Source: a virus. From it: a stretch of DNA of 49,893 bases. Every line of letters begins with the position of its first letter. The first letter of the stretch is position 1. Below the pieces are notes generated by a model, which had not been told where the DNA came from, did no database searches, and saw only the letters and a program-made list of their open reading frames with translations. Both the position numbers and the translations under genes were made by a program. The stretch is from the IMG/VR virus record IMGVR_UViG_3300034062_007461, positions 1 through 49,893 of that record; one strand, 5' to 3'. Positions 1,421 to 45,470 of this stretch are shown piece by piece.

Positions 1421-2557
1421 TTAATCACTGATGGCCATGGTGTGTTGACCACCTGCATCAACCGTTGACCAAGTTGTTAAAGCGCCAACCTGTACTGGAC
1501 TAGATACATATACAGTTGCGCTATTACCTATACCTAATCGACCGGAGCTGCTGTTACCCCACGCCCACATGGTTCCATCTGTTTTAATAGCCATGTTGTG
1601 ATAACTACCTGAAGCAATATTTAACCAATTAGTTAATGCGCCAACCTGTTTTGGGCTTGAATAGTTTGTGGTATTGCCTAATCCTAATTGCCCATTTGAA
1701 TTGCGACCACCCAATCCCCACATGGTACCATCTGTTTTAATGGCCATGCTATGATAACTACCTGAAGCAATTGTTAACCAAGTTGTTAGGGCACCAACCT
1801 GTACAGGACTAGATCTATATGTTAGATTGCCTAATCCTAATTGCCCATGTGGATTCATACCCCACGACCACATGGTACCATCGGTTTTGATGGCCAAGCT
1901 GTGATTATAACCTGCAGAAATTCGTAACCAAGTAGTTAAAGCACCAATCTGTACTGGACTAGATATATTTGTAGTATTTCCTAGACCCAGTTGTCCCTGT
2001 GCATTATATCCCCACGACCACATAGTACCATCTGTTTTGACGGCCATGCTGTATTGAAAACCTGCATCAATTTTTGACCATGTGGTTAATGCACCAACCT
2101 GTACTGGACTAGATATATTTGTAGTATTTCCTAGACCTAATTTACCGCTGCTACCATTACCCCATGACCACATGGTGCCATCTGTTTTAATAGCCATGCT
2201 ATGATAAGTGCCTCCAGCAATACTTGACCAAGTTGTTAGGGCACCAACCTGTACTGGACTAGATATATCTGTAGTATTACCTAAACCTAATTGGCCGTTT
2301 CCGCCTGAACCCCATGACCACAAGGTACCATCTGTTTTGACTGCCATGGTGTGCTGGCTACCAGCAAAAACTGTTGACCATGTACCTAAAGCACCAACCT
2401 GTACTGGACTAGATATATCTGTAGTATTACCTAAACCCAATCTGCCATAGCTATTTCTACCCCATGACCACAAGTAAAATTCTGGTACAGGAACCGGAGG
2501 ATCCCATGTCTGCACATTCATTCCACCAAGAGCAAAGTTAACATTTGTAATTTGCAT
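1421..2557 (-). CDS. RCC1-type seven-bladed beta-propeller tail adhesin
   Basis: A protein of 378 residues made of RCC1 repeats of about 50 residues, each carrying W-x-W-G, then G-x-L-G-x-G-N-T-T and SSPVQ. The first unit starts at W-S-W-G without its upstream half; that half (TTWSTVDAGGQHTMAI) is at the C-terminus. This gives seven blades with circular closure, as known for RCC1 propellers. An N-terminal peptide MQITNVNFALGGMNVQ and a PPVPVP linker precede the propeller. Blade 6 has W-G-L-G with an extra residue, and blade 7 carries an insertion (NSATVYV). The propeller fold is well supported; a role in host binding is inferred from the phage context. Confidence 0.85.
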   Translation of the reverse strand: MQITNVNFALGGMNVQTWDPPVPVPEFYLWSWGRNSYGRLGLGNTTDISSPVQVGALGTWSTVFAGSQHTMAVKTDGTLWSWGSGGNGQLGLGNTTDISSPVQVGALTTWSSIAGGTYHSMAIKTDGTMWSWGNGSSGKLGLGNTTNISSPVQVGALTTWSKIDAGFQYSMAVKTDGTMWSWGYNAQGQLGLGNTTNISSPVQIGALTTWLRISAGYNHSLAIKTDGTMWSWGMNPHGQLGLGNLTYRSSPVQVGALTTWLTIASGSYHSMAIKTDGTMWGLGGRNSNGQLGLGNTTNYSSPKQVGALTNWLNIASGSYHNMAIKTDGTMWAWGNSSSGRLGIGNSATVYVSSPVQVGALTTWSTVDAGGQHTMAISD

Positions 2558-2569
2558 TTTAATTCTTTC

Positions 2570-3466
2570 TTATACGTTTGCTGTGTTTGTTGATGGGAAT
2601 GCTCGACCGGATCCCCAAATAATTCTTACTGCTCCAGTACCACCAGGGCCCGAGAAGTTAGGTCCATCTGTTGCGCCACCTGCACCCACTACCACAGTAT
2701 AACTTTGACCTGGCACAACTTCAATATTATTTTTCCAACCAAGGCCACCGCCGCCGCCATTGATAGTATAGGTGCCTGAGCCACCACCACCATAGAAACC
2801 GCCAATCCCGCCATTAGTACCCGAACCATTTGGATATTGTACACCATTACCACCACCTGATCCGCCTCTAGCAAAACCGCTACCATTTACTGAACCAAGT
2901 GGCGACCCTATACCGCTTGTGCCTTGACCTAAGATGCCAACACCGCCTCCAGGTCCCCAAACACCTCCACCACCTCCACCGCCTTGGCCATCGCCACCTG
3001 CAATAGTAGCAGTAGGTGCGGCCGTACCTTTACCCGCATCGCCACCGTTTCCTGAATATCCGCCAGCGCCACCGCCACCATAAAAATCAGTACCTGACCC
3101 ATTATAGCTATTACCACCATTGCCACCACCGTCACCTACATAACCACCACCAAAACCATAACCGGCACGCAGAGTACCCACTGCGCCACTATAAGCTCCG
3201 CCTCGACCACCGCCTAATCCTGCCACTGTTACTTGGCTTATAAAATAACTATTGCCGCCATTGGTCACACTTGCTGCAGTACTTGAAGAACGACACCCGC
3301 CACCCCCGCCACCAACCGCCACAACTGCGACGCTATATACTCCAGGTGGGGCAGTCCAACTGAATGTGCCTGCAGTAGTAAATTGAGCTTGACCTGGCGG
3401 AGTCGGAGGAGGCGGAGTAGTAATAATTTGCATTCCGCCCAATAACTCTAATCCCGATAATCGCAT
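2570..3466 (-). CDS. glycine-rich tail tip/adhesin protein
   Basis: A protein of 298 residues. An N-terminal peptide (MRLSGLELLGGMQII) and a PPPPTPP linker lead into a segment reading FTTAGTFSWTAPPGVYSVAV. This is typical of phage glycine-rich fibre proteins, in which a beta strand precedes long poly-glycine loops. Residues from about 55 to 275 are dominated by GGG runs, like the polyglycine-rich adhesins (T4 gp38-like) of tailed phages. The C-terminus GTGAVRIIWG closes the domain. It lies directly upstream of an RCC1 gene with which it shares the N-terminal layout. Receptor binding is inferred. Confidence 0.75.
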   Translation of the reverse strand: MRLSGLELLGGMQIITTPPPPTPPGQAQFTTAGTFSWTAPPGVYSVAVVAVGGGGGGCRSSSTAASVTNGGNSYFISQVTVAGLGGGRGGAYSGAVGTLRAGYGFGGGYVGDGGGNGGNSYNGSGTDFYGGGGAGGYSGNGGDAGKGTAAPTATIAGGDGQGGGGGGGVWGPGGGVGILGQGTSGIGSPLGSVNGSGFARGGSGGGNGVQYPNGSGTNGGIGGFYGGGGSGTYTINGGGGGLGWKNNIEVVPGQSYTVVVGAGGATDGPNFSGPGGTGAVRIIWGSGRAFPSTNTANV

Positions 3467-13547: not shown

Positions 13548-14075
13548 TTATTCTAGTGGATTCGTCGGCCAAGTAACATCACTTATTGTTTTAATTTTAG
13601 TAGTGCCCTCAACATAACCATTCACATCTAGATCTCTAAGTGCTTGTCTGTATGCCAATACATCTGCGAATTGTTGATCTGTTAGTTTATGGGAAATATT
13701 TAACAAAGTCTCTTCTTGATGTCTTTGTAAAATGTAATCAGTATTATATATCAACATTTCTCGTTGAGCAGATGCAGGAACTCTTGCAGTATTCATTGCC
13801 AAGTCTGCAATAGCCGCCTGTTCGATATTTGCCAAGTGTTCTGCGATCCAAACAATTGCGGGCAAACTTGAACCGGAAGAAACGACACCATTTAGTTCTT
13901 CAACCGCATAAAGGTTTCTGTCTGGTTCATATGAAACTCTACGGACAGTATCTGTAAATGGAAAATTTGTGTGTTCTATAAACACAGATGGGGCAGAAAA
14001 TAAATAACCCGTACCATTGAATCTACAAGATACTGTTCCATTATAAAAATCTATTGAGACATAGTTATGTAACAT
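13548..14075 (-). CDS. tail fibre assembly / tail assembly chaperone-like protein
   Basis: The C-terminal third (LTDQQFADVLAYRQALRDL, then TWPTNPLE) matches the typical end of phage tail-assembly chaperone proteins, where a helix of the form YRQALRDL precedes a WP-x-x-P. The N-terminal part is beta-rich and lacks known motifs. AAGGA lies upstream of the start. The gene directly follows the collar-type fibre gene, as such chaperones usually do, so it may fold or attach that fibre. Confidence 0.65.
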   Translation of the reverse strand: MLHNYVSIDFYNGTVSCRFNGTGYLFSAPSVFIEHTNFPFTDTVRRVSYEPDRNLYAVEELNGVVSSGSSLPAIVWIAEHLANIEQAAIADLAMNTARVPASAQREMLIYNTDYILQRHQEETLLNISHKLTDQQFADVLAYRQALRDLDVNGYVEGTTKIKTISDVTWPTNPLE

Positions 14076-15560: not shown

Positions 15561-16460
15561 TCATAACTTAGTTAATCGCACTGCACCCTGCGCCCAGGTT
15601 GTTACCAACGTGCCAGTATTTTCTCTCACAATATTAGATGCGATTGGATTAACATAAGAATTGGGTGAGCTGGTATTTAAACTATCGTATCCACCTGCAG
15701 GACCAACCGAATCATCTGTACCATTTCCACCACCGAACCCACCATATGTGGTTTGGTTGTTATACCCTGCTCCCGTGCCATTTATACTTTGATTTTTCCA
15801 ATTAGTATTGAATCCTGTTCCGACTGTTCCATCTGCTGAGCTTGAAGCAGTTGCAGGAGTTGAAAATCTTCCTTCACGTTGTCCTAGACCGCCAGCTGCA
15901 ACTAATAATGCTGTCATATCACCAGCTGAAAAGGTCGAACTTCCGCTAGATGATTTTGCAACAACAGTAAATCCTCCGCCAGCCCCGCCCGCAAAATCCA
16001 AGCTACCCGAATTTCCACTTGCGCCCGCGCCTCCTATTGTTATCCAAAGTACATCTCCAGAGTTTAACGTAAAATCTCCTTGTACCGCAGATCCTACGAC
16101 AGACGGTTTATCAGTCGGTCCCCCGGATCCACCTTGCGATTTTATACGCCAGGTACCGGTTTCTGGAATTGTAAAATATATGTAACCAGCCGCGGAAGGT
16201 ATTTTAATATATGTGGCAGCAACCATTGCATCATATGCTCCGGTTTGAGATGTTGAATTAAAATACCCATATATCTCTGCAGCAGTTTGTCCGGAAATAG
16301 GAGTAGTATCATTTGGACCGGAAGTTGTCCTACTTGAAGATACTGTTATTGGACTAGAATAAACGTATAAACCTGAGGGTGCAGGTGCTCCTGGCGGAGG
16401 CGTCTCACCGGAGGTTATTCTTCCGGAAAAACTAACATTATTTAAAGTAAATCTTGCCAT
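15561..16460 (-). CDS. glycine-rich tail fibre protein
   Basis: A protein of 299 residues. An N-terminal beta-type peptide (MARFTLNNVSFSGRIT) and a PPPGAPAP linker are followed by an unusual middle section (ISGQTAAEIYGYFNSTSQ). A glycine-rich domain then begins YIYFTIPETGTWRIKSQG. The GG content is lower than in the other four glycine-rich proteins of the window, and the C-terminus reads WAQGAVRLTKL. It lies between a small structural gene (1-base gap) and the collar fibre. A tip or adhesin role is inferred. Confidence 0.65.
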   Translation of the reverse strand: MARFTLNNVSFSGRITSGETPPPGAPAPSGLYVYSSPITVSSSRTTSGPNDTTPISGQTAAEIYGYFNSTSQTGAYDAMVAATYIKIPSAAGYIYFTIPETGTWRIKSQGGSGGPTDKPSVVGSAVQGDFTLNSGDVLWITIGGAGASGNSGSLDFAGGAGGGFTVVAKSSSGSSTFSAGDMTALLVAAGGLGQREGRFSTPATASSSADGTVGTGFNTNWKNQSINGTGAGYNNQTTYGGFGGGNGTDDSVGPAGGYDSLNTSSPNSYVNPIASNIVRENTGTLVTTWAQGAVRLTKL

Positions 16461-17799: not shown

Positions 17800-18951
17800 T
17801 TAATTTGTAATAGATAGCATATTTGCTCCGGCTGCAACACTGTACCATGTTGTAGACGAACCAACTTGTACTGGACTGGATCTATGTGTAGTATTGCCTA
17901 AACCAAGTGAGCCGGATCCATTTGCGCCCCATGTCCATAATGTACCATCGGTTTTGATTGCAGCACTAGTAAGATTACCAGCGGAAACCATTGACCAATT
18001 TGTTAGTGCGCCAACCTGTACTGGGCTAGATTTGCTGATAGTAGTGCCGTCACCTAAATTGCCGTAAGTAGTATTATATCCCCATGACCATAACGTTCCA
18101 TCTGTTTTTATTGCTAAGGTATAACCGTCACCACCATCAATACTTGACCACGTAGTCAATGCGCCAATTTGTACTGGACTGGATCTATATATAGTAGTGC
18201 CGTCACCTACATTGCCGTAATAATTGTAGCCCCAGCTCCATAAGGTGCCGTCTGTTTTAATGGCCGCGCTGGTGGACGACGCCGCGGCTATCTTTGACCA
18301 AGTTGTTAGTGCACCAATTTGTTTTGGACTTGAATAATCTGTGGTATTACCCAAGCCTAATCGGCCAGAGCCACCACTACCCCAAGCCCACATGGTACCA
18401 TCTGTTTTGACGGCTATGGTATGCAGAGAGCCGCCAGCAATTTTTGACCATGTGGTTAAAGCACCAATCTGTACTGGACTTGATCTGAATGCGGTATCAC
18501 CTAACCCCAATTGCCCCATGCCAGTGCCATAATTTCCGCCCCATGACCACAAGGTACCATCTGTTTTAATGGCCAGGCTGTGACTATAGCCTGCAGCAAT
18601 ACTCAACCAAGTAGTTAAAGCACCAACTTGTACTGGGCTAGATACTCTACCAGATGGATATGTGCCAACTGGTTCGCCATTGCCCAATTGCCCAAATTGA
18701 TTATATCCCCAGGTCCACAAGGTGCCATCAATTTTTGTTGCCATGCTGTACTGACCGCCTGTGGCAATCTGTGACCATGTGGTTAGTGCGCCAATCTGCA
18801 CAGGACTAGATCTATCAATAGTAGATCCGTCACCAACTGCGCCGTAGGCATTATACCCCCATCCCTGTAGGTAATATACTGGCGGAATTGGAAAGACTGC
18901 TTGCGCGCTAACGTCGCCGACGAAATTTAAGCCTGAAAAAGTAAATGCCAT
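17800..18951 (-). CDS. RCC1-type seven-bladed propeller adhesin
   Basis: The promoter-distal member of the array, 383 residues. The N-terminal peptide is MAFTFSGLNFVGDVSAQ, with linker FPIPP. Blade 1 has Q-G-W-G in place of W-S-W-G. Blades 1, 5 and 6 carry a GDG-T-I loop instead of GLGNTT. Blade 2 has a 9-10 residue insertion (EPVGTYPSGRV) before SSPVQ. These make it one of the more divergent propellers. The closing half-blade ends AAGANMLSIT, where the usual His is replaced by Asn. Confidence 0.83.
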   Translation of the reverse strand: MAFTFSGLNFVGDVSAQAVFPIPPVYYLQGWGYNAYGAVGDGSTIDRSSPVQIGALTTWSQIATGGQYSMATKIDGTLWTWGYNQFGQLGNGEPVGTYPSGRVSSPVQVGALTTWLSIAAGYSHSLAIKTDGTLWSWGGNYGTGMGQLGLGDTAFRSSPVQIGALTTWSKIAGGSLHTIAVKTDGTMWAWGSGGSGRLGLGNTTDYSSPKQIGALTTWSKIAAASSTSAAIKTDGTLWSWGYNYYGNVGDGTTIYRSSPVQIGALTTWSSIDGGDGYTLAIKTDGTLWSWGYNTTYGNLGDGTTISKSSPVQVGALTNWSMVSAGNLTSAAIKTDGTLWTWGANGSGSLGLGNTTHRSSPVQVGSSTTWYSVAAGANMLSITN

Positions 18952-33434: not shown

Positions 33435-33442
33435 TATTTATC
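33435..33442 (-). promoter_or_regulatory. late promoter-like box GATAAATA
   Basis: One mismatch from TATAAATA, 35 bases before the ATG at 33400. It overlaps the upstream stop as TGATAAATA, as at 43371. Confidence 0.42.
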
Positions 33443-34634
33443 ATCCTAATCCTATACTATGGCTGTATCCAGTAGCTACAGTAAGCCAATTTGTTAAGGA
33501 TCCGACCTGGTTTGGCTCACTTCTACCAAAAGTATCTCCAAGACCAAGTTTACCGTTAAAGTTATCTCCCCAAGACCACAATGTACCGTCGGTTTTAGTT
33601 ATTATGCACTGAGTGTTCAAAGCTCCAGTCCCAGCATTTGACCAAGTTGTTAATGCACCAACTTGTTTTGGACTAGAATAACTTGTGGTATTACCTAAAC
33701 CCAATTGTCCAGATGATCCTCTACCCCATGTCCACAATGTACCATCAGTTTTAATTGCCGCGCAGCTATTATACATCGCACGAATTTTTGACCAATTTGT
33801 TAATGCCCCAATTTGTACTGGGCTTGAAAAGTATGTAATATTACTTAGACCTAATTGACCATAACCATTATTTCCCCAGCTCCACATAGTACCATCAGTT
33901 TTAATAGCAATCGAAAAATTGGATTGTCCCCCGCAACTACCACGTGCCCAAGTTGTTAATGCACCAATCTGTACTGGACTAGATCTATGCGCAGTATCGC
34001 CTAGTCCTAATTTGCCATGATGGTTCGCGCCCCATGACCACATAGTACCATCTGTTTTAATGGCTATGGAGTGATCAACACCGGAGGAAACACTTGACCA
34101 ATTTGTTAATGCCCCAATTTGTACTGGACTAGATATATTTGTAGTATTACCTAAACCAAGCTGACCTAAGTTATTTTTACCCCACGACCAAATAGTACCA
34201 TCTGTTTTGATGGCCATGCTGCAACCGAAGCCTGAACTAACACGAGACCAAGTGGTTAATGCACCAATCTGCACTGGACTAGATCTATTTGTAGTATCAC
34301 CTAAGCCCAATACGCCTTGATAATTTTCACCCCATGCCCATAAGGTGCCGTCGGTTTTAATTGCTTGACTATTTGAGTATCCTGCACCTACAACAGACCA
34401 ATTCAAAGACCCAACTTGTTTTGGACTTGAATAATTTGTCGTATTGCCTATACCTATTTGACCACTGCTACCGCTCCCCCATGAATATATTTTATATACT
34501 ACCGGAGGCGCAGGCCAAATGCCTGCTCGTTTTGCCTGCATTTGATCTGCAGGATTAAAAATTCCAGAAGCAGATGAAGTATTAACTACTGTGGGTGTTG
34601 CAGATATTAATCCGCCGTAATACTTTTTAACCAT
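33441..34634 (-). CDS. RCC1 propeller adhesin with long fibre-type N-terminus
   Basis: A 397-residue product. Instead of the short peptide it starts with about 41 residues (KKYYGGLISATPTVVNTS, then SASGIFNPADQMQAKRAGIWP). This type of leader is common on phage fibre and structural proteins. A seven-blade propeller follows, with blade 1 I-Y-S-W-G and a closing half-blade ending HSIGLG. Blade 5 has GLSNITYFSS. The leader nearly matches that of the next gene upstream, while the propellers differ. Confidence 0.84.
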   Translation of the reverse strand: MVKKYYGGLISATPTVVNTSSASGIFNPADQMQAKRAGIWPAPPVVYKIYSWGSGSSGQIGIGNTTNYSSPKQVGSLNWSVVGAGYSNSQAIKTDGTLWAWGENYQGVLGLGDTTNRSSPVQIGALTTWSRVSSGFGCSMAIKTDGTIWSWGKNNLGQLGLGNTTNISSPVQIGALTNWSSVSSGVDHSIAIKTDGTMWSWGANHHGKLGLGDTAHRSSPVQIGALTTWARGSCGGQSNFSIAIKTDGTMWSWGNNGYGQLGLSNITYFSSPVQIGALTNWSKIRAMYNSCAAIKTDGTLWTWGRGSSGQLGLGNTTSYSSPKQVGALTTWSNAGTGALNTQCIITKTDGTLWSWGDNFNGKLGLGDTFGRSEPNQVGSLTNWLTVATGYSHSIGLG

Positions 34635-34649
34635 ATTAATTTATATTGT

Positions 34650-34657
34650 TATTTATT
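34650..34657 (-). promoter_or_regulatory. late promoter-like box AATAAATA
   Basis: One mismatch from TATAAATA. It overlaps the stop of the upstream RCC1 gene and lies only 16 bases before the ATG at 34634, giving a very short leader if used. Confidence 0.3.
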
Positions 34658-35864
34658 GCTTAGTAGCCAACACGAATCGATGGGAATTTCCTGCAACAAC
34701 ATCTATCCAGGTAGTCAACGATCCAACTTGATTTGGACTAGTATTATTAAAAATATAGCCTTGTGCCAGGACTCCACCCTGATCACTTCCCCATGCCCAT
34801 AATGTACCATTTGTTTTAATTGCGGTGGTGAAATAATTACCTGCAGAAACTTTTAACCAATTAGTTAAAGCTCCAACTTGGTTCCAAACGTATGTACTCG
34901 AAGTTCCGTTATTTCCCAGTTCTCCATATGAATTCTGGCCAATAGTCCATAATGTACCATCAGTTTTAGTTGCTGCATTGTGGTTGCGGTTAGCAGCAAC
35001 CGACGCCCAATTTGTGCCTGAGCCAACTTGTGTTGGCTCAGATCTTTTTACAGTATCCCCAAATCCTAATCTGCCCTGAAAACCACTTCCATTAGTCCCC
35101 CAGGCATACAACGTACCATCTGTTTTAATTGCAAAACTTGTATTATAACCTGCAGAAATCTTTAGCCAAGTGGTTAGAGCACCAATCTGTTTTGGACTCG
35201 AATATGCTGTAGTATTACCTAAACCCAATTGACCGTCATTAGCAGATCCCCAACTCCACAATGTACCATCGGTTTTAACTGCCAAACAATGAAATTGAAC
35301 AACTGAAGTAGTTTTCCAATTGGTTAAAGCGCCAATTTGTTTAGGAGAAGAATAATAAGTACTATTACCTAGACCCAGTACTCCGGCGTTATTAGCACCA
35401 CAACTCCACATCGTGCCATCGGTTTTAACTGCAATAAAGCATTGTAAACCTGCGCTAACACTTTCCCAATTAGCTAATGCACCTACTTGCGTTGGACTAG
35501 AAACTGGTGTGGTATTACCAAGACCCAAACGACCATACCCATTTCTTCCCCAGGCCCAAAATGTTCCGTCAGTTTTAATAGAATATCCTGAGTGTCCTCC
35601 GGCTGCTATAGTTTTCCAATTGGTTAAAGATCCAACTTGTTTAGGTGAGGAATAAAGGTTAGTATTACCTAAGCCAAGGTTACCATATGAATTTTGCCCC
35701 CAAGACCAAAGATTGTATGGGATAGGAGGTGCTGCAGGCGTAGGCCAATTGCCTGCTCGTTTTGCCTGCATTTGTTGAGTAGGATTGAATATTCCAGAAG
35801 CGGATGAAGTATTAACTACCGTTTTGGTGGCAGATATTAGTCCTCCATAATACCTTCTTTTCAT
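34653..35864 (-). CDS. RCC1 propeller adhesin with long fibre-type N-terminus
   Basis: A 403-residue product, the longest propeller. Its leader (KRRYYGGLISATKTVV, then SASGIFNPTQQMQAKRAGNWP) is the twin of that in the downstream gene. Blade 3 is W-S-C-G, blade 5 Y-A-W-G with an insertion (NGSGFQGR), blade 6 W-T-I-G with NNGTSSTYVWNQ, and blade 7 GVLAQGYIFNNTSPNQ. It is the most divergent RCC1 protein of the window. One base separates it from the small structural gene upstream. Confidence 0.83.
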   Translation of the reverse strand: MKRRYYGGLISATKTVVNTSSASGIFNPTQQMQAKRAGNWPTPAAPPIPYNLWSWGQNSYGNLGLGNTNLYSSPKQVGSLTNWKTIAAGGHSGYSIKTDGTFWAWGRNGYGRLGLGNTTPVSSPTQVGALANWESVSAGLQCFIAVKTDGTMWSCGANNAGVLGLGNSTYYSSPKQIGALTNWKTTSVVQFHCLAVKTDGTLWSWGSANDGQLGLGNTTAYSSPKQIGALTTWLKISAGYNTSFAIKTDGTLYAWGTNGSGFQGRLGFGDTVKRSEPTQVGSGTNWASVAANRNHNAATKTDGTLWTIGQNSYGELGNNGTSSTYVWNQVGALTNWLKVSAGNYFTTAIKTNGTLWAWGSDQGGVLAQGYIFNNTSPNQVGSLTTWIDVVAGNSHRFVLATKQ

Positions 35865-35865: not shown

Positions 35866-36237
35866 TTAGCTTATATCCTCATAACTGCAAGTTACGTGAA
35901 GAACATTTCCAGTATCTGCAGTTGCCCCTAAACTTGTATTTTCTTCCAAGTAATATTGACTGCTTTTATCTATAACATTTAATGTACTGTTTCCAGGAAC
36001 CGTTGTCCGGCCAACAATATTAAATGCATTGCCACTCAAGCTAGCTGCAGAATAATAACTTATTGTTACATTTGCAGACGTTGAAGTGTAATTTGAAACG
36101 TTCAATACATTTATCTTTAAACATTTGCCAGAACTAGCGGCATTGTTTAGTATAGAAGTTGCAGTTATAGTTGTTAAGTTTGCTCCCGCTGTTTTACCAT
36201 TGATTATTGTTGCGCCGATTATGTTTGGTGCTGCCAT
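35866..36237 (-). CDS. small beta-rich structural protein, 123 aa
   Basis: A beta-rich 123-residue product (IIGATIINGKTAGANL, then LKINVLNVSNYTSTSANVTI). The order of features, with a VLNVSN strand, a serine-rich turn and TVPGNSTLNVIDK, resembles the two 109-residue proteins at 42648 and 45480. It is likely a third member of that family. GGAGG precedes the ATG. It is one base from both neighbours, directly below the giant fibre, so it may be a fibre accessory. Confidence 0.6.
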   Translation of the reverse strand: MAAPNIIGATIINGKTAGANLTTITATSILNNAASSGKCLKINVLNVSNYTSTSANVTISYYSAASLSGNAFNIVGRTTVPGNSTLNVIDKSSQYYLEENTSLGATADTGNVLHVTCSYEDIS

Positions 36238-36238: not shown

Positions 36239-39200
36239 TTATCCTCCGAATATTAATGAATAGCCCACTGCTGCAGCTGCGCTTCCGCCTGCGCCTCCGC
36301 TACCAACAGTAGTCCAACCTGATGAAGTGTATACAACCAACGCGTTTGCGGTTGTGTTATAAACTGTATCGCCTTGTAATGCAGTTGCTAAAGCATTAGT
36401 ATTAGAATAATTTGCAAATCTTATTGGCGTTGAAGCCTGTACTCTGCCGGTCGATTGTGGCGATAATAAAATATTACCAGATGTTGATATTGTTAAATCA
36501 CCAAATCCATTAATAATTCCTGCAGTATTGCCAGAACTTAATGTTACAACAGATGAATTTGCACCTGTTGCAAGAATAATATTTCCGCCGGATGTAATAT
36601 TAACATTACCCGCGGAGAAAATTGTTCCACCAGCTGCGCCTGTACCATTGGCATAGAATGCGTTTGCTATTACGTTACCGGTGTTAATGTTGCCGGTATA
36701 AGTTATTAGGAACGCGGCAACATTGGCATTGGCAAATTGACTACCTTGTGGGTTTGCTGCAAGATAAGCAATAACATTTGAAACAACTCTTGCATTTGTA
36801 TAATATAAGTTACCACTTGAAGCAAGTTCTGCAACATTGGCAGTTGTTAAATTAGCCTGCGTAACTGACCCACCGGCTGATATACCAGTAACCGTTCCTC
36901 TAAATGTTATCGGACTGTTGACAAAAATGTTACCGCCAGCCAAATTCAAATTACCTGTAGCACTTAACAATAAGTTACTAGATGTCGATAATTCTGCAGA
37001 GCCTGTACCTGTAGCAATAAATGTATTTGCAATTATGTTTCCGCTTGCAAGAACATTTGAAGCTGTTAAATTAATGGTATTATTTTGAGCAATAATGTTC
37101 AAATTACCGGTTGAATTTAATGTGCCGGACGTTGCTGAAGGTGAAATAACTGTGTTAGCTATAACATTACCTGCGGAAATATTACCGGTATATGTTGTTA
37201 AGAATGCACTCACATTTGCATTACTATAACTTCCGCTTGTAGGATTTGTTAATAGATATGCTGCAACATTGGCATTACCATATGTACCGCCTTGTGGGTT
37301 TGCCGCAAGATAAGCAATAACATTTGAAACAACTCTTGCATTGGTGTAATATAGGTTGTTTAATTCTGTTACATTTGCCGTTGTTAAATTAGCCTGAGTA
37401 ACCGATGCACTTGCAATACCCGTAACCGTTCCTCTGAATGTTATAGGGCTATTGACAAAAATGTTACCACCTGCCAAATTTAAATTGCCGGTCGCGCTTA
37501 ATAACAAATTGCTTGAAGTTGAAAGTTCTGCGGAACCTGTACCTGTAGCAGTGAATGTGTTAGCAACAATATTGCCAGATGCAAGAACAGTATTTGCAGT
37601 TAAATTAATTGTGTCACCGGAAACAATGTTCAAATTACCAGTTGAATTTAATGTGCCAGATGTTGCAAACGGTGAAATAACTGTGTTAGCAATAACATTG
37701 CCAGCATTAATATTGCCGGTATATGTTGTCAGGAATGCGCCGACATTAGCATTACCAAAATTACTTATTATTGGATTTGCCGTTAAATAAGCAGTAACAT
37801 TAGATAACACACGAGCATTTGTGTAATATAAATTGCCACTTGCGGCATTTTCATTTACATTTGCAGTGTTTAAATTAGCAGTTAATGCATAAGATGATAG
37901 TACTCCAATAACATTAGAATAAACTCTTGCATTTGTGTAGTATAGATTTGAACCTTCAGCAATACTAGAAGTCGTTAAGGTTAACCCTGTTAATCCTCCT
38001 CTTAATACCAGATTACCATTAACAAAAACATTTGGAGCAGTTAAGTTCAAATTACCGGCTGCACTTAATAATAAATTACTTGTGGATACTATTTCACCGG
38101 AACCTGCACCTGCTGATATAAATGTATTTGCAACAATGTTGCCTGATACCAATACGTTGGGCGTGGTTAAATTAATTGTACCCACCGCAGTAATATTTAA
38201 ATTGCCAGTAGATGTTAGTGTAGCTGATGTTGCCGTAGGAGAAACAAAGCTGTTAGAAATTATATTTCCTGCAGAAAGATTGCCCGTATATGTTGTTAAG
38301 AATGAAGCAACATTGGCATTACTAAATGATGAAGATGCTGTAGGAGCAGCCCAGAATAAATTGCCTGTGCCATTTGTTTGCAGTATATACCCGGTCACCC
38401 CATCGGTCTTTGGCCATGCTTGCCCATCTAATATAATTCTACCTGTGCCGTTTGCAACCAATTCTATGTTGGAATTTCCGGTAGTTGATATAGATAGAAC
38501 ACCCACGTTGTCTATTATGCCGCCGGTTAAAATTAAGTTACCTGCAGCAATGTTACCAGTGTATGTTGGCAATGCCGCTTCAATATTTGATAATACTCGA
38601 GCATTGGTATAATATAAGTTTGAACCTTCGGCAATGCTTGATGTTGTTAGTGTTAATCCAGTTATTCCGCCTCTTAGTACTAAATTGCCGTTAACAAAAA
38701 CATTCGATGATGTTAAGTTAAGATTACCGGCTGCACTTAATAACAAGTTACTTGTGGATGCAACTTCGCCTGAGCCTGCACCGGTCGATATAAAATTATT
38801 TGCTACAACATTACCTGACACCAATACGTTTGGTGTTGTTAAATTAATTGTTCCGGCCGCAGTAATATTCAAATTACCCGTTGATGTCAATGTTGCTGAA
38901 GTTGCGGTTGGCGATACAAAACTATTGGCAATTACATTACCGGCACTTAGATTGCCAGTATAAGTTGTTAAGAAAGAACTCACATTGGCATTGCCAAAAC
39001 TAACAGTCGCAGGATTTGCTGCTAAATATGCAATAACATTTGATACTACTCTGGCATTGGTATAATATAAGTTTGAACCTTCAGCAATGTTTGAAGTAGA
39101 CAATGCTGATAATGCGCTTATAACATTAGAGTAAACTCTTGCATTCGTGTAGTATAAGTTTGAACCTTCAGCAATGCTTGATGTTGTTAAAGTTAAGCCT

Positions 39201-41602
39201 GACAGAGCACCTCGTAATACTAAATTGCCATTAACAAATACATTTGAAGATGTTAAGTTTAAATTACCAGCTGCGCTTAATAATATATTGCTTGTGGATG
39301 TAAGTTCTGCAGAGCCTGAGCCGGTTGCAATAAATGTATTTGCTACAATATTGCCTGACACCAACACATTGGTTGTTGTTAAATTAATTGCACCTGCCGC
39401 AGTAATATTCAAATTGCCGGTAGATGTTATTGTTGCCGCTATTGCAGTAGGTGACAGAATTGTATTTGCAATTACATTACCTGCACTAATGTTACCGGTG
39501 TATGTTGTTAGGAATGAAGCAACATTGGCATTGGCAAATGATGATGCAGGTGCTGCCCAAAATAAGTTGCCTGTACCATTTGTTTGTAGTACATAACCAT
39601 TAATGCCATCGGTATGTGGCCATGCCTGCCCATCTAATAAAATTCTGCCATTACCTGCCGCAGATAATTCTATGTTGGAATTTGAAGTGGTTGCAATTGT
39701 CAATACACCAACATTATCTATTATTCCACCTGTCAATATTAAATTACCTGCAGCAAGATTGCCGGTGTATGTTGATAGGAATGATGCAACATTGGCGTTA
39801 CTAAAACTACCACTTACCGGATTTGCCGCAAGGTAAGCAGTAATATTTGATAAAACTCTGGCATTGGTATAGAAAATGCTATTGCCGGATTCAATTACGT
39901 TGGCCGTATATAGATTCAACCAAGTTGTTGCAGAAATATTACCCGCACTAATTAAATTGGCGCCTGTAAACGAACCACCGGAACCACTGCCTGTTATAAT
40001 GTTATTGGCAACAATATTGCCCGATGCAATAACATTCGGAGATGTCAAATTAATTGCACCTAACGCAGTAATATTCAAATTACCTGTTGATGTTATTGTT
40101 GCAGCTATTGCTGTAGGTGAAATAATTGTATTGGCAATAACATTGCCTGCAGTAATATTACCGGTGTATGTTGTTAGAAACGCACCTACATTTGCGTTAC
40201 CATATGTACTAATTGCGGGATTTGCTGCCAAATATGCAATAACATTTGATACTACTCTGGCGTTGGTGTAATATAAATTGTTTAATTCCGCAACATTGGC
40301 TGTGGTTAAATCTACTACATTGGCTTTTAATCTTAAATTAGACTCAACTTGAGCATTAACTCTGGCATTTGTATAGAATAGATTGTTTGTACCTTCAGTA
40401 ATACCATTTGTATTGCCTGAGAATGATGATGCACCTACTCCCGTTAGAGAAGAACCATCACCAAAGAATTTTGTTGCGATTACATTACCAGATGCAATAA
40501 CATTGCCGGAATTTAATGTAATATTTCCAGTGCCCGTGATATTAACATTACCGGTAGAAGATAATGTAGCAGAGCCTGTACCTACTGATATAAATGTATT
40601 TGCAATTAAATTACCGCTTGCAATAACATTTGTGGAATTGATATTGACTGCACCTGCGGCAGTCATTGTAATGTTTCCAGTAGATGTAATCAACCCAGCA
40701 GATGCGCTTGCTGATATAAATCCATTTGCTATTACATTACCAGTAACATTTAGATTGCCTGTGATATTATTAACATTTACGGAAACGCCAGTCAAATTAG
40801 CAGAGATTTGACCATTAGCAGCGATAATAATGTTATTACCCTGTAATGACGGCATTAATGCTATAACATTGGATGCTACTCTGGCATTTGTATAGTATAA
40901 ATTATTACCTTCAGCAACATTGGCAGTTGTTAAATCAACTACATTGGCCTTGGCAGCCAATAATGATACCACATTGGCAAAAACTCTGGCATTGGTAAAA
41001 TAAAGATTACTTGCAGATTCTGTTACATTTGCAGTAAAAATTCCAGAATAACTATTTGCTGTTAAAGGTCCGTTAACAACAATACTTGATCCAGTTAAAG
41101 TAACGACGCCGGTTGCGGATATTGATACGTTGCCGGTGGATGATAATAATCCAGAGCCTGGGCCGGTTGATATAAAAGTGTTGGCAATAACATTGCCAGT
41201 TGCGATAACATTTGTAGAGTTGATATTGACTGCACCCGCAGCAGTCATGGTGATGTTGCCAGAGGATGAAATTAAGCCAGCAGAAGCACTTGTGGAAACG
41301 AAACCATTGGCAATTACATTGCCGCTAACATTCAAGTTGCCAGTAACAGAAGAAACACTTACCGCAGACAGGTTTGCTGAAATAAGACCATTTGCTGCAA
41401 TAGAGATATTATCGCCGGCAACAAGAGCGCCGATTGCCCTGGCGTTACTGAAATATACATTACCAGAACTTGTGTTTCCCGATTCAATAACATTACCGGT
41501 AAATATACTTTGGAAGGAAACATTGCCGGTGTTGGCACCCAGCAATTGGCCGTTACTTCCTCCATTTCCACTGATTAAACTTACATCTATTTTGCGAGCC
41601 AT
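36239..41602 (-). CDS. giant repeat-rich tail fibre, 1787 aa
   Basis: A very long beta-repeat protein. About a dozen copies of a module with LYYTNARV and SNVIAYLAANP alternate with TYTGNISAGNVIAN and STGNLNITA units. Each turn looks like a beta-helix or triple-helical fibre shaft. FFGDGSSLTGV and AWPHTDGINGYVLQTNGTG are modules known from phage tail fibres. The C-terminus (GDTVYNTTANALVVYTSSGW) matches fibre tips. A late-type box precedes it. It may carry the tip proteins encoded nearby; this is inferred. Confidence 0.85.
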   Translation of the reverse strand: MARKIDVSLISGNGGSNGQLLGANTGNVSFQSIFTGNVIESGNTSSGNVYFSNARAIGALVAGDNISIAANGLISANLSAVSVSSVTGNLNVSGNVIANGFVSTSASAGLISSSGNITMTAAGAVNINSTNVIATGNVIANTFISTGPGSGLLSSTGNVSISATGVVTLTGSSIVVNGPLTANSYSGIFTANVTESASNLYFTNARVFANVVSLLAAKANVVDLTTANVAEGNNLYYTNARVASNVIALMPSLQGNNIIIAANGQISANLTGVSVNVNNITGNLNVTGNVIANGFISASASAGLITSTGNITMTAAGAVNINSTNVIASGNLIANTFISVGTGSATLSSTGNVNITGTGNITLNSGNVIASGNVIATKFFGDGSSLTGVGASSFSGNTNGITEGTNNLFYTNARVNAQVESNLRLKANVVDLTTANVAELNNLYYTNARVVSNVIAYLAANPAISTYGNANVGAFLTTYTGNITAGNVIANTIISPTAIAATITSTGNLNITALGAINLTSPNVIASGNIVANNIITGSGSGGSFTGANLISAGNISATTWLNLYTANVIESGNSIFYTNARVLSNITAYLAANPVSGSFSNANVASFLSTYTGNLAAGNLILTGGIIDNVGVLTIATTSNSNIELSAAGNGRILLDGQAWPHTDGINGYVLQTNGTGNLFWAAPASSFANANVASFLTTYTGNISAGNVIANTILSPTAIAATITSTGNLNITAAGAINLTTTNVLVSGNIVANTFIATGSGSAELTSTSNILLSAAGNLNLTSSNVFVNGNLVLRGALSGLTLTTSSIAEGSNLYYTNARVYSNVISALSALSTSNIAEGSNLYYTNARVVSNVIAYLAANPATVSFGNANVSSFLTTYTGNLSAGNVIANSFVSPTATSATLTSTGNLNITAAGTINLTTPNVLVSGNVVANNFISTGAGSGEVASTSNLLLSAAGNLNLTSSNVFVNGNLVLRGGITGLTLTTSSIAEGSNLYYTNARVLSNIEAALPTYTGNIAAGNLILTGGIIDNVGVLSISTTGNSNIELVANGTGRIILDGQAWPKTDGVTGYILQTNGTGNLFWAAPTASSSFSNANVASFLTTYTGNLSAGNIISNSFVSPTATSATLTSTGNLNITAVGTINLTTPNVLVSGNIVANTFISAGAGSGEIVSTSNLLLSAAGNLNLTAPNVFVNGNLVLRGGLTGLTLTTSSIAEGSNLYYTNARVYSNVIGVLSSYALTANLNTANVNENAASGNLYYTNARVLSNVTAYLTANPIISNFGNANVGAFLTTYTGNINAGNVIANTVISPFATSGTLNSTGNLNIVSGDTINLTANTVLASGNIVANTFTATGTGSAELSTSSNLLLSATGNLNLAGGNIFVNSPITFRGTVTGIASASVTQANLTTANVTELNNLYYTNARVVSNVIAYLAANPQGGTYGNANVAAYLLTNPTSGSYSNANVSAFLTTYTGNISAGNVIANTVISPSATSGTLNSTGNLNIIAQNNTINLTASNVLASGNIIANTFIATGTGSAELSTSSNLLLSATGNLNLAGGNIFVNSPITFRGTVTGISAGGSVTQANLTTANVAELASSGNLYYTNARVVSNVIAYLAANPQGSQFANANVAAFLITYTGNINTGNVIANAFYANGTGAAGGTIFSAGNVNITSGGNIILATGANSSVVTLSSGNTAGIINGFGDLTISTSGNILLSPQSTGRVQASTPIRFANYSNTNALATALQGDTVYNTTANALVVYTSSGWTTVGSGGAGGSAAAAVGYSLIFGG

Positions 41603-41655: not shown

Positions 41656-42648
41656 TTAAAACGTAATGGATCCTGAACTGGTCCATTGATATATTCTATA
41701 TCCGCCGGATACTATTACGTTAGGTGACCCTGTTGTACTTGTTGCTGATGAAAATGTATCTGCATAGCGGATGATTACAGTACCAGAACCTCCGGAACCA
41801 GCTATACCAGTTGTCCATCCTAAACCTCCACCACCACCGCCGGTATTTACGTTGCCAGATGTTGCACTTGCTGTTCCACTAGCCGCCATAACGCCTGCAC
41901 CACCACCTCCGGAACCACCATTTCCAGCAGTAGAGCCACCTTCACCGCCACCGCCACCGCCACCAGCATAATAAGTTGCAGTCCCGGTAATAGAACTAAC
42001 TGCACCAATGCCGCCATTGCCACCTGTTCCCGGAGAAGTACCATTTCCGTTTGCACCGACACCTCCCGCTCCGCCACCGCCACCAGCAACATAAATTGTA
42101 TTAGGACTAGTTCCGCGTGTTCCCGAACCACCATTATTACCTTGTCCTGCAGTACCTGTTCCACCAGCAATAGTTGTAAAAGAAGCAGCAGAAGAACCAC
42201 CGCCACCAGAACCGCCATTAGCGCCAACTGAAACATATGCGCCACCACCGCCGCCGCCTATTGCTGTTACCGTAGTAAATCCAGAACCAGATATACTTGA
42301 GTTAGCACCAGAAGCGGCTCGATTATTTGTTTGAGTTTGTGTTCCTTGTATTCCAACACCACCTGCGCCAACTGTTATTGTGTATGTAACACTAACGGCT
42401 ACGTTTGCCGTATTAGTTAGTAATCCACCTGCTCCGCCGCCGCCTCCGTCTGCTGAACCTCCTGCTCCTCCGCCAGCAACTACTAGATATTCTACCGTTG
42501 AAGTTGGAACAGGTGGCGGGGGCGGTTCTCCTGCAACTAAAATATTAACACTGACTTTTTGTCTTGCAATGGCACGAAAATTGTTCGCAGATGCAGAAAA
42601 CTTTTGTGTAGTACTAACTTTTGCAGCACTATACTTCCGTAAGGTCAT
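41656..42648 (-). CDS. glycine-rich tail tip protein
   Basis: A 330-residue product. The N-terminus is unlike the others: a basic, helical-looking stretch (RKYSAAKVSTTQKFSASANNF) precedes PPPPPVP. The body starts VEYLVVAGGGAGGS and runs about 220 glycine-rich residues. TVIIRYADTF and GGYRIYQWTSSGSITF close it, as in the proteins at 25853 and 43377. The start overlaps the stop of the 109-residue gene (TAATG), so attachment may differ from the short-peptide class. Confidence 0.78.
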   Translation of the reverse strand: MTLRKYSAAKVSTTQKFSASANNFRAIARQKVSVNILVAGEPPPPPVPTSTVEYLVVAGGGAGGSADGGGGGAGGLLTNTANVAVSVTYTITVGAGGVGIQGTQTQTNNRAASGANSSISGSGFTTVTAIGGGGGGAYVSVGANGGSGGGGSSAASFTTIAGGTGTAGQGNNGGSGTRGTSPNTIYVAGGGGGAGGVGANGNGTSPGTGGNGGIGAVSSITGTATYYAGGGGGGGEGGSTAGNGGSGGGGAGVMAASGTASATSGNVNTGGGGGGLGWTTGIAGSGGSGTVIIRYADTFSSATSTTGSPNVIVSGGYRIYQWTSSGSITF

Positions 42649-42977
42649 TAGGTAACCTCAGTGCCGAACAGATTAAAACTAATATTTGTGGTATTTGCAT
42701 ATACTGTTACAACGTCTGTGGCAGCCAATGTTACACCGATTGTTAGCGATATTGAATCCAAAGCAGGAACAGTTGCATCAAAGGCAATATAATGTTTGTT
42801 TGCCAGCGTTTCACCTGCAGGTCTTACTGCAATGCGATATGCTGCTGCACTGGCATTTTGATTACAAACTGATATTGTAGAAGTAACTGCACTTGTGCCC
42901 GACGGAACAGTATACAGTGTATTTGCTGTACCTGCTGAAGGACTGATCTGTCCCAATACTTTATATGTTATCGCCAT
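42648..42977 (-). CDS. small beta-rich structural protein, 109 aa
   Basis: A 109-residue product with TLYTVPSGTSAVTSTISVCN, IAVRPAGETLANKHYIAFD and a C-terminal LAATDVVTVYANTTNISFN. Nearly the same sequence is encoded at 45480-45809. Such proteins are, from memory, common next to fibre genes of aquatic T4-like phages. TAATG coupling joins it to the following glycine-rich gene. A capping, joining or head-decoration role is possible. Confidence 0.7.
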   Translation of the reverse strand: MAITYKVLGQISPSAGTANTLYTVPSGTSAVTSTISVCNQNASAAAYRIAVRPAGETLANKHYIAFDATVPALDSISLTIGVTLAATDVVTVYANTTNISFNLFGTEVT

Positions 42978-43370: not shown

Positions 43371-43378
43371 TATTTATC
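43371..43378 (-). promoter_or_regulatory. late promoter-like box GATAAATA
   Basis: One mismatch from TATAAATA, 25 bases before the ATG at 43346. It overlaps the upstream stop as TGATAAATA. Confidence 0.42.
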
Positions 43379-44336
43379 AGAATGTTATTGAACCGGATGA
43401 GGTAAATTGATATATTCTATATCCGCCAGATACTGTTACGTTAGGTGAACCTGTTGTAGCTGTTGCTGCATTATATGTATCTGCATAGCGAAGGATTACA
43501 ATTCCAGAACCACCAGCACCGCCAGAAAATCTTGATCCTGAATAAGCACCGCCACCACCACCCCCACCTCCAGAATTAGTGCCGCCGGCGCCACCGGCGC
43601 CACCGGTTGTTCCACTTGCTCCTCCGTTACTTCCGCCTGCACCGGATAATCCTGAACCAGAAGAACCTCCCCCACCTCCCCCCCCACCGCCGCCGCCGCC
43701 AGCAGAAAGTCTATAACCGCTACCGCCACCGCCGCCAGCATAATATGTTGCAGTTCCGGAAATATCAGTTGATGTACCGGAACCGCCGGTACCGCCAGTA
43801 GGGGATGCACTTGCAGGCCCCGCATTACCTCCAACAGTATTAGAGCCACCTCCACCTCCACCAGCACCATCGATAGAACCATTTAATCCACCTCCACCAT
43901 TATTGCCTTGACTAGGTGATGTTGATGGCGTGTTTCCTGCACCGCCTGTTGTTGGTATAGTAGGAGATAAACCGTAACCTGTACCACCACCGGATCCACC
44001 AGAAGCGCCATTTAATCCAACTGAGGTAGTTCCATAACCCCCGCCAGTTGAGGTAATATCTCCAAATACAGAATTTGATCCCGAAATACCGTTGCCTCCG
44101 CCAGAGCCACCGGACCCACCACCGCCAACGGTAACAGTAATAGCAGAACCAGATGTTACAGAGTAACCAGCCGCAGTTCTGTACCCACCAGCACCGCCAC
44201 CGCCACCATCAGAGCCACCACCACCTCCACCAGCAACTACTAGATATTCAACTGTTGGGGTAGGAGAAGGAGGAGGCGGAGTAATTGTTAGGGCTACCCC
44301 TGATCCGATTGAGATACCATTGAATGAAATTGCCAT
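43377..44336 (-). CDS. glycine-rich tail tip protein
   Basis: A 319-residue product with N-terminal peptide MAISFNGISIGSGVALTI and linker PPPPSPTP. VEYLVVAGGGGGGS opens a long glycine-rich body of about 230 residues. IVILRYADTY and GGYRIYQFTSSGSITF close it. The peptide belongs to the same type as the RCC1 proteins, while the body matches 25853 and 41656. It lies between an RCC1 gene and the 119-residue gene. Confidence 0.8.
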   Translation of the reverse strand: MAISFNGISIGSGVALTITPPPPSPTPTVEYLVVAGGGGGGSDGGGGGAGGYRTAAGYSVTSGSAITVTVGGGGSGGSGGGNGISGSNSVFGDITSTGGGYGTTSVGLNGASGGSGGGTGYGLSPTIPTTGGAGNTPSTSPSQGNNGGGGLNGSIDGAGGGGGGSNTVGGNAGPASASPTGGTGGSGTSTDISGTATYYAGGGGGSGYRLSAGGGGGGGGGGGGSSGSGLSGAGGSNGGASGTTGGAGGAGGTNSGGGGGGGGAYSGSRFSGGAGGSGIVILRYADTYNAATATTGSPNVTVSGGYRIYQFTSSGSITF

Positions 44337-44351
44337 TTTTTTACTTTTAAT

Positions 44352-45470
44352 TTATGACGAGATTGCAGTTGAATGTCTATATCCTGCAGAAACATTCAAC
44401 CAATTAGTTAAAGCACCAATTTGTACTGGACTAGATCTATTTGTGGTATTACCTTGACCTAATTGACCGTAGCTATTACCGCCCCATGACCACAGTGTAC
44501 CGTCGGTTTTAACTGCCGTAGTATGGAATTGTCCCGCATCAATTTTTGACCAAGTAGTCAATGCTCCAACTTGTACAGGGCTAAATATATCAGTAGTATT
44601 ACCTAAACCCAATCGGCCTGTCTCGCCTGAACCCCAAGCCCATAATGTACCATCTGTTTTAATGGCTACATTATGCTGATATGCTGCTTCTATAATTGAC
44701 CAATTGGTCAACGCACCAACTTGTGCTGGACTAGAACCACCGCCCGATCCTCCATCTTGTCCTGCATTGTTTCTACCCCAAGCCCACAATGTACCATTGG
44801 TTTTAATGGCAATCGTATGATGGTCTCCGCTAGTACAGCGCAACCAATTATTTAATGCGCCAACTTGCACAGGACTAGATCTATAAAATGTATTGCCCTG
44901 GCCCAACTGCCCATAAAAATTATTTCCCCATGACCACAGGGTACCATCGGTTTTTACGGCAAACGACGATGAACCGCCGGTGCCAATACTCGCCCACGTG
45001 GTTAATGCGCCAACTTGTTTGGGACTTGAATATGCTGTAGTATTACCGAAGCCAAGTTGTCCCGAGCCATTGGTTCCCCATGCCCACATGGTGCCATCTG
45101 TTTTTATAGCCAAACTATGCTCGCGGCCGCTGGCCAGACTACTCCAACCGGTTAATGCGCCAACTTGTACTGGACTAGATCTTGCGGTTGTAGTATTATC
45201 CCCCAATTGTCCACTGGCGTTATTACCCCAACTCCATAATGTACCATCTGTTTTTATAGCTGTATTATGATACCCACCGCCAGCAACACTTAACCAATTA
45301 CCCAGGGCACCAATTTGCGTGGGGCTCGATCTATTTGTGGTATCTCCCACGCCCAATCTCCCGTGGTAATTTACTCCCCATGACCATAAGTAAAATTCTG
45401 GTGGCGGAGGCAGATCAGGTGTCTCGTATGAAAATGTTCCACCAAATGTTAGATTTTGAAATGTGATCAT
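44352..45470 (-). CDS. RCC1-type seven-bladed propeller adhesin
   Basis: A 372-residue propeller with N-terminal peptide MITFQNLTFGGTFSYE and linker PDLPPPP. Blade 5 is altered: GRNNAGQ is followed by DGGSGGGSSPAQ, which replaces GLGNTT. Several loops use GQG for GLG. It stands apart from the main array, between the 109-residue structural gene and a glycine-rich gene, directly after the second giant fibre. Confidence 0.85.
   Translation of the reverse strand: MITFQNLTFGGTFSYETPDLPPPPEFYLWSWGVNYHGRLGVGDTTNRSSPTQIGALGNWLSVAGGGYHNTAIKTDGTLWSWGNNASGQLGDNTTTARSSPVQVGALTGWSSLASGREHSLAIKTDGTMWAWGTNGSGQLGFGNTTAYSSPKQVGALTTWASIGTGGSSSFAVKTDGTLWSWGNNFYGQLGQGNTFYRSSPVQVGALNNWLRCTSGDHHTIAIKTNGTLWAWGRNNAGQDGGSGGGSSPAQVGALTNWSIIEAAYQHNVAIKTDGTLWAWGSGETGRLGLGNTTDIFSPVQVGALTTWSKIDAGQFHTTAVKTDGTLWSWGGNSYGQLGQGNTTNRSSPVQIGALTNWLNVSAGYRHSTAISS

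Follow-up and report, generated by a model that had tools for sequence, protein, structure and literature searches.

Twelve RCC1 propellers of an uncultured lake phage as probable exchangeable tail-fibre tips on shared N-terminal anchors

Introduction

What do twelve RCC1 propeller proteins do in the genome of a single phage? The question is raised by a DNA stretch of 49,893 nucleotides (referred to as the window), which is the complete IMG/VR record IMGVR_UViG_3300034062_007461 and represents a fragment of an uncultured lake virus of bacteria. An initial annotation, made from the letters alone, had described the twelve as seven-bladed rings and as candidate receptor-binding domains. Our analysis bears out that observation and supports part of the interpretation, and adds what had been overlooked: N-terminal anchors, glycine-rich (Gly-rich) partner proteins and a connector gene. 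We consider it probable that the twelve are virion proteins that serve as exchangeable distal tips of tail fibres. Proteins are named below by their lowest window coordinate (Table 1).

Carrying many RCC1 proteins had been called unusual, which held up only in part: phages with several copies and RCC1 arrays are known already, with 13 such proteins in 121Q and eleven in phAPEC6 (PMC5259590, PMC7247149). What seem to be new are the shared anchors, the connector family and a genome in which ten RCC1 tips draw on a single anchor class. The available literature passages held no account of RCC1 propellers as phage tips with an anchor common to Gly-rich tips, which does not imply that none is in print.

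Results

Closed seven-bladed rings in the window and its relatives

All twelve predicted open reading frames (ORFs) were found at the positions first annotated, on the minus strand, with open frames and short gaps between genes. For the gene at 21278 the ORF was confirmed, while its start is probably at 22405 (MAFTFSG...) and not at the first ATG at 22459. Cutting at the repeat boundaries yielded 84 units of 46–56 residues, matching the estimate of about 84 blades, with seven repeats in each of the twelve; blade 4 of 24717 is degenerate and has lost its G-loop. The Pfam profile PF00415 matched 83 of the 84 repeats, 82 of them over the family cut-off. Scanned with hmmscan, 10 of 11 proteins gave seven RCC1 stretches and 24717 gave six; in 44352, one of the seven PF00415 places was under the cut-off.

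The structure of 44352 was predicted with AlphaFold2 (AF2) from a 54-row alignment (mean predicted local distance difference test score (pLDDT) 92.3, predicted template modelling score 0.88). The model is a closed seven-bladed ring; the other eleven proteins are assigned the same architecture by their repeat count. Its strands, one (residues 27–32), six times four, and finally three (residues 345–371), add up to 28 and thus to seven four-strand blades. The circular 'velcro' closure that had been claimed is present in this model, but two half-blades are not: the split is 1 + 3, and the N-terminal strand completes the last blade. The proteins had also been said to begin in mid-blade, which needed amending since their first 24 to ~51 residues are non-propeller. 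The closest solved folds were those of UVR8, HERC2, HERC1, RCC1 and RPGR (Foldseek E down to 2e-35), and both PF00415 matches over the curated cut-off and the closed seven-blade ring place the proteins in the RCC1 repeat superfamily.

Strict seven-fold length is not peculiar to the window phage. Among related phage loci, 275 of 280 complete RCC1 ORFs were seven-bladed (176 of 180 after 95% dereplication), as judged with a blade hidden Markov model built from the window's own blades; ORFs truncated at the end of a locus were not scored. Before this count, in which the virus itself entered once, eight window loci and those belonging to the same virus had been removed, as also before the gene-order, anchor-class and connector-family counts below. 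A first survey of 80 loci, phage S-SRM01, further record pieces and the window, in which copies of one locus were recounted and the window's virus was also present as locus L009, gave seven blades in 238 of 243 complete ORFs, six in four and two in one. Loci fetched by anchor motif and not by RCC1 yielded 39 seven-bladed ORFs out of 39 (20 loci, not dereplicated). The ORF ends at most five residues from the last blade in 140 of 176 propellers. The proposed selection for a closed seven-fold ring fits this survey. Such proteins are rare among annotated phage records: a tblastn search with 44352 matched 52 of 50,697, and 16 of them across at least 80% of its length. Locus L094 (9894–10265) holds a two-blade remnant, the anchor of which is nearly identical to that of 17800.

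Shared anchors in front of different distal domains

Each of the twelve proteins consists of a short N-terminal segment, a Pro-rich stretch and the propeller. The segments (referred to as anchors) fall into two classes in the window: ten follow the class IV pattern M-x-x-hydrophobic-SG...G...P(P), with 44352 and 1421 placed there by pattern and not by strong similarity, and two (33441, 34653) are of class III. Three Gly-rich proteins of the window (2570, 25853, 43377) have a front end of the class IV type. The anchor of 25853 resembled that of its RCC1 neighbour 26748 over the first 19 residues with z = 8.1 (reached by 0/1000 shuffles), and 2570 resembled 24717 with z = 5.0 (0/1000 shuffles). 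The anchor of 1421 matched that of 2570 (z = 4.9, 1/1000 shuffles) and was weakly similar to the other two Gly-rich anchors, while for 44352 similarity to the Gly-rich anchors was not significant. Altogether, 16 of the 30 Gly-rich/RCC1 anchor pairs were reached by at most 10/1000 shuffles. Because Gly-rich and RCC1 proteins match at the anchor, the front end is kept while the distal fold changes.

An AF2 model of the Gly-rich protein 43377 (pLDDT 84.3, with residues 1–17 mostly below 50) was compared with solved structures by re-aligning Foldseek candidates. The best matches were the tail tip of mycobacteriophage Bxb1 (Z 14.0, 3.3 Å over 170 residues) and the fibre of cyanophage Pam3 (Z 13.5, 2.6 Å over 166 residues, and Z 12.8), followed by a match at Z 5.7.

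To look behind the anchors irrespective of the domain that follows, a viral collection was scanned with DNA patterns for two anchor classes, II and III. The motif lay within 45 aa of an ATG (ORF start) in 193 of 202 places. Proteins below 90 aa and duplicates by their last 60 residues had been dropped for this count. Of 137 distinct proteins, 131 were scanned for domains, the six omitted being shorter than 150 aa and the sequences being truncated to 420 aa. Behind the anchors lay Gly_rich_2 (52), RCC1_2 (20), DUF7483 (17), SBBP propeller (12), Laminin_G_3 (11), Lcl_C (11), DUF5122 propeller (6) and fn3 (5) domains. PHROG names among these proteins included virion structural, tail and tail fibre protein; many were nameless. 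In the lake phage record DSL-LC04, a class III-like segment starts a lectin-annotated protein (43% over 44 residues, E 0.006) and also a Gly-rich protein.

In a tree of the 176 propellers, 87 of the 173 inner branches were open, i.e. poorly resolved, and 16 of the 176 anchors fell in the class 'other'. Anchor labels required 68 changes on this tree versus a shuffled mean of 88.4, a value as low being reached in 0/200 shuffles, which indicates that anchor and propeller are linked, loosely. A single expansion of class IV in this lineage is possible: the class needs five changes on the tree, whereas starred branches force two. Among 61 distinct loci with at least two RCC1 genes, the class orders included I-II (17), I-II-I-II (12) and I-II-III (11), and a class was repeated in 23. 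Since most relatives have one or two of each anchor class, the window is an outlier.

Tip genes near fibre genes

A C-terminal motif of fibre proteins (...IAxAxIFGF and the like) was present in 68 of 166 ORFs separated from the first tip gene by a single gene, compared with 8 of 231 directly before a tip, 14 of 128 two genes before and 30 of 1864 without a tip in the next three genes (ORFs near locus ends being scored as without a downstream tip). Of 69 genes between fibre and tip, 65 belonged to one family of 119–139 aa (~125 aa) that includes 35866, and they were followed by 29 Gly-rich, 18 RCC1 and 18 other anchored tips. We propose that this family acts as a connector. By reading, the other four comprised three HNH endonuclease-like genes and one apparently spurious ORF; HNH endonuclease-like genes occupy the usual connector place in L027 (3301), L033 (1345) and L086 (3753).

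Within the window, two such orders occur: 36239 (fibre), 35866, 34653 and 33441; and 45820 (fibre), 45480, 44352 and 43377. The main RCC1 block (27890–17800) has no fibre gene directly before it. Both fibre genes (36239–41602 and 45820–49893) are very repetitive (NVIANTFIS...STGN repeats), with internal repeats of 77–85% DNA identity.

The two phrog_1276 proteins, 45480 and 42648, are weakly similar to the connector family (E 0.004–0.01), and their relatives are annotated as virion structural or tail fibre-like. Record G005 has a fusion of a phrog_1276-type domain with an RCC1 propeller (47% over 107 aa). RCC1 propellers with N-terminal parts of 209–513 aa, one of them phrog_1276-type, were seen in L075 (4387–6351) and L093 (5245–12985), from a 124-kb virus record with at least eight full-length RCC1 ORFs in the pieces seen.

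Variability of the blades

Over 1232 blades, variability was higher in the BC and DA loops (1.96 bits, 17 positions) than in the AB and CD loops (0.94 bits, 10 positions; one-sided p 0.019). Because the strand order is antiparallel, BC and DA are taken to lie on one face, an assignment made from strand order and not from coordinates. Positions 6, 8, 9, 39, 40 and 41 exceeded 3 bits and were rich in Tyr, Asn, Ser, Phe and His, and all 84 window blades differed at the variable positions. This would be the pattern of a binding face, as judged from sequence, and is not a proof of one. Likeness between window blades was 0.576 within the same protein, 0.582 at the same position and 0.566 otherwise. 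Exact repeats of up to 70 nt occur within 21278.

Genome context

The window encodes ribonucleotide reductase, thymidylate synthase and DNA primase, the best primase matches among those listed being from Methylophilales, Synechococcus and Pelagibacter phages (42–43% identity). These genes and the primase matches point to a T4-like phage. No tRNA was found in the window. The T4-like late promoter motif TATAAATA occurs six times in the window versus 7.35 expected by chance, always on the minus, i.e. coding, strand and once 34 nt before gene 27911, the first gene of the main RCC1 block; as a promoter signal this is weak, the total being no higher than chance.

An 82,535-nt record of the same virus contains the window. 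Comparison covered stretches in each record: 15,539, 1,489 and 105 nt of the longer record gave 0 mismatches, with the RCC1 places listed recurring at a constant offset, and two further records gave 1 mismatch in 9,885 nt and 0 in 13,654 and 5,308 nt. No PF00078 (reverse transcriptase) match was found in records G000, G001 and G005, completeness not being established for any of them. Within the reach of these records we rejected rapid retroelement-driven variation: a reverse transcriptase match, the mark of a diversity-generating retroelement, was missing, and the compared stretches hardly differed from those of three other records.

Between the two tip blocks, at 28365–33400, lie sulfotransferase-, glycosyltransferase-, methyltransferase- and 2OG-oxygenase-like genes (by reading); S-SRM01 likewise has genes annotated as these kinds among its RCC1 genes. 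A phrog_7759 gene (42987–43346) stands between two Gly-rich tip genes.

Table 1. Propeller, Gly-rich, fibre and associated genes of the window
Position	Strand	Feature	Remark
1421..2557	-	RCC1 propeller, 7 blades, class IV anchor by pattern	
2570..3466	-	Gly-rich protein, class IV anchor	Pfam Gly_rich_2 below cut-off only
13548..14075	-	tail fibre assembly-like protein	
15561..16460	-	candidate for another protein with a class IV anchor	weak Gly-rich match (PF12810, below cut-off)
17800..18951	-	RCC1 propeller, 7 blades, class IV anchor (MAFTFSG...)	
18964..20085	-	RCC1 propeller, 7 blades, class IV anchor	
20102..21250	-	RCC1 propeller, 7 blades, class IV anchor	
21278..22405	-	RCC1 propeller, 7 blades, class IV anchor	
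22419..23549	-	RCC1 propeller, 7 blades, class IV anchor	
23565..24698	-	RCC1 propeller, 7 blades, class IV anchor	
24717..25823	-	RCC1 propeller, 7 blades (blade 4 degenerate), class IV anchor	6 PF00415 stretches
25853..26731	-	Gly-rich protein (PF21722), class IV anchor	inside RCC1 block
26748..27890	-	RCC1 propeller, 7 blades, class IV anchor	close anchor similarity to adjoining Gly-rich gene
33441..34634	-	RCC1 propeller, 7 blades, class III anchor (YYGGLISAT...QMQAKRAGxWP)	
34653..35864	-	RCC1 propeller, 7 blades, class III anchor	start resembles that of DSL-LC04 lectin-annotated protein
35866..36237	-	small protein, 123 aa, proposed connector	E 1e-45 against profile of its family, itself included
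36239..41602	-	long fibre-like structural protein, 1787 aa, phrog_697	C-terminus ...AAAAVGYSLIFGG
41656..42648	-	Gly-rich protein, different unclassified anchor	
42648..42977	-	small phrog_1276 protein, 109 aa, matches tail fibre PHROGs	relative fused to RCC1 propeller elsewhere
43377..44336	-	Gly-rich protein (phrog_2295), class IV anchor	AF2-modelled
44352..45470	-	RCC1 propeller, 7 blades, class IV anchor by pattern only	modelled
45480..45809	-	small phrog_1276 protein, 109 aa	flanked by fibre gene and RCC1/Gly-rich genes
45820..49893	-	long fibre-like structural protein, phrog_697 + phrog_2952	N-terminus beyond window, in longer record

Discussion

The computed elements, namely the fold of one member, the seven repeats in all twelve, the shared anchors, the gene order, the fusion and the variability pattern, are consistent with a model from which we infer docking partner, place on the virion, receptor binding and type of ligand. 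In each tip, a closed RCC1 ring of seven blades would follow a short N-terminal anchor and a Pro-rich linker. The anchor would attach the protein to the virion, probably to the end of a long fibre and with the ~125-aa protein assisting. Of the two faces of the propeller, one conserved and one variable, the variable one would bind a structure on the host surface, which is probably a glycan. Lectins, Gly-rich sandwiches and propellers of the RCC1 and other types would then be alternative tips on the same kinds of anchor. Candidacy as receptor-binding domains, as first annotated, thus gains support from the shared anchors, the order of fibre, small protein and tip, the fusions, and the detection of the RCC1-like protein GAP32_001 in virions by mass spectrometry (PMC5259590), while binding itself is our inference. 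Virions of phage W70, which infects E. coli K-12 MG1655, hold three readily detected RCC1 proteins of phrog_4219 (PMC11370258), a family that the window RCC1 proteins match too.

Two other functions can be set against this reading. As eukaryotic RCC1 binds chromatin, the phage proteins might order or condense the DNA in the head, which has been put forward for phAPEC6 and W70 (PMC7247149, PMC11370258). Their fold is similar to nucleosome-bound RCC1 chains, and eight of the twelve have a net charge of +4 to +14, whereas the other four are near neutral (–0.7 to +1.5). DNA condensation nevertheless strikes us as very unlikely. It fits poorly because it leaves unexplained the similar front ends on lectins and Gly-rich tips; similar anchors carry other propeller domains as well, the RCC1 genes lie beside fibre genes, and the Pseudomonas phages Littlefix and PollyC have RCC1-fold matches within proteins that bear the name tail fibre or a T7 tail-fibre N-terminal domain. 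Action in the infected cell, e.g. as inhibitors or regulators, is scarcely credible: PHROGs does file RCC1 families under DNA, RNA and nucleotide metabolism, an annotation by name, but RCC1-like proteins have been detected in the virions of other phages (PMC5259590, PMC11370258), the anchors are common to tip folds and the genes stand beside structural genes.

A location on the particle other than the fibre end deserves more thought. The proteins might decorate the surface (head, sheath or 'hair' fibres) and help the virion adhere to polysaccharide or particles without selecting a receptor, since twelve copies seem many for fibre positions and phAPEC6, which encodes eleven RCC1-like proteins, bears hairy appendages on both head and tail (PMC7247149). 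We regard this as unlikely: in this virus, as in many of its relatives, the tips are encoded behind a fibre gene and a conserved small gene, the model of the Gly-rich partner matches phage fibre and tail-tip structures, and phage CBB is described as hairy yet without the GAP32_001 protein (PMC5259590). The array could also be a set of recombining cassettes with no single function, in which duplicates form a store of variants and few are expressed or displayed. Blades are as alike between proteins as within them, and the exact repeats in 21278, the two-blade remnant in L094 and broken-looking copies in 121Q would suit such a store. It is highly improbable all the same, given twelve open frames with short gaps, the near-constant number of seven blades and stretches nearly unchanged in the other records of the virus.

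Several points weigh against reading the twelve as exchangeable fibre tips. As to the anchors, 14 of the 30 Gly-rich/RCC1 pairs were reached by more than 10/1000 shuffles, and the anchors of 44352 and 1421 have weak similarity to most of the rest. For the class III anchor a single phage record was matched, at the E of 0.006 given above, and a search with the class IV anchor returned 32 stretches, of which four were from this virus, six from a further virus type that has a Gly-rich tip protein and 22 apparently by chance. The patterns for motif, anchor class, fibre motif and kind of tip were regular expressions written after viewing the sequences, and anchors of classes I, II and IV need not dock where class III does. 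As to the neighbourhood, 35866 had no PHROG match, the fibre adjoining 44352 is without the IFG ending, and a conserved gene order could come from co-inheritance and not from contact; presence in virions, as in GAP32 and W70, does not indicate a place on the particle. For the Gly-rich partner, Foldseek alone gave a best E of 0.0016 for the 43377 model, gp38 of phage S16 was not among the re-aligned structure matches, and a tblastn search with the Gly-rich query found no phage record; gp243 of 121Q had no Pfam family match. Finally, the comparison of faces draws on 27 loop positions and on strands taken from a single model, and positions 34 and 43, which lie in strands, also exceed 3 bits.

If the twelve are fibre tips as we favour, the genome devotes some 13–14 kb to propeller tips and uses one anchor type ten times. 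We tentatively suggest that the ~13 tips with one kind of anchor (ten RCC1, three Gly-rich), nine of which come from one contiguous block, might be made together and compete for the same docking sites, so that virions of a single clone would carry random mixtures of tips; this is possible, if less than an even bet. It would amount to a built-in display of alternatives without gene switching, mutation or retroelement, and likewise for the arrays of 121Q and phAPEC6. The shared anchors make host recognition by phage RCC1 proteins testable, including in a phage of laboratory E. coli, and the anchor peptides together with the ~125-aa connector family offer a sequence handle for tip proteins of any fold in uncultured phages.

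How do these proteins compare with known systems? With eukaryotic UVR8, HERC2 and RCC1 they share the closed seven-blade ring, but carry a phage anchor and linker in addition; the likeness lies in the fold and not in any indicated Ran, nucleosome or UV-B function. The Kyanoviridae S-SRM01 and BUCT-ZZ01 also have RCC1 proteins near baseplate or tail-fibre genes, those of S-SRM01 coming after baseplate and long-tail-fibre genes. S-SRM01 differs in the number of its RCC1 genes (three), in its anchor type and in including one six-blade protein, and BUCT-ZZ01 in having 14 blade matches in one chain.

A similar arrangement is found in 121Q, which has a tandem array of RCC1-like proteins of ~370–400 aa with an N-terminal peptide common to a Gly-rich protein: 11 of the 13 ORFs gp236–248 begin with MLPFxRM(V/M/I)(K/N)YGN, one of them (gp243) being Gly-rich by sequence, and 11 of the 13 are annotated 'putative DNA condensation'. 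In this array (KM507819, locus L358, 11590–24523), gp239/240 and gp237/238 look like broken copies. In GAP32, the RCC1-like GAP32_001 starts like GAP32_002, annotated as virion structural, with an MLPFxRM-type peptide (L360, 1615–3750; by reading, the end of GAP32_002 is LamG-like). The peptide MLPFxRMVKYGN has no visible likeness to the window anchors, however, and no fibre-annotated gene lies in the 24.5 kb seen around the 121Q array. The blades of 121Q, phAPEC6 and GAP32 are also far more diverged (0–1 PF00415 stretches in the five scanned), and the proteins are annotated as DNA condensation. Because similar leader peptides carry other tip folds, the phage RCC1 proteins so annotated may be host-recognition parts, as our data suggest.

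A further comparison is with gp38 of T4-like phages (S16, T2, PP01), likewise a separate tip protein. In these phages the receptor is bound by the Gly-rich gp38 tip, whose exchangeable N-terminal part joins it to the fibre (PMC12892980). In the two gene orders given above, the tip genes of the window are separate genes downstream of a long fibre gene, with a small gene between, and the Gly-rich partner resembles phage Gly-rich fibre chains. Here, distal domains exchange behind shared anchors, which may dock on a fibre as the N-terminal part of gp38 does. What sets the window apart from gp38 is a distal domain that is an RCC1 propeller and not a polyglycine II (PGII) sandwich, an anchor of ~24–50 aa with a Pro-rich linker, and many paralogues in one genome.

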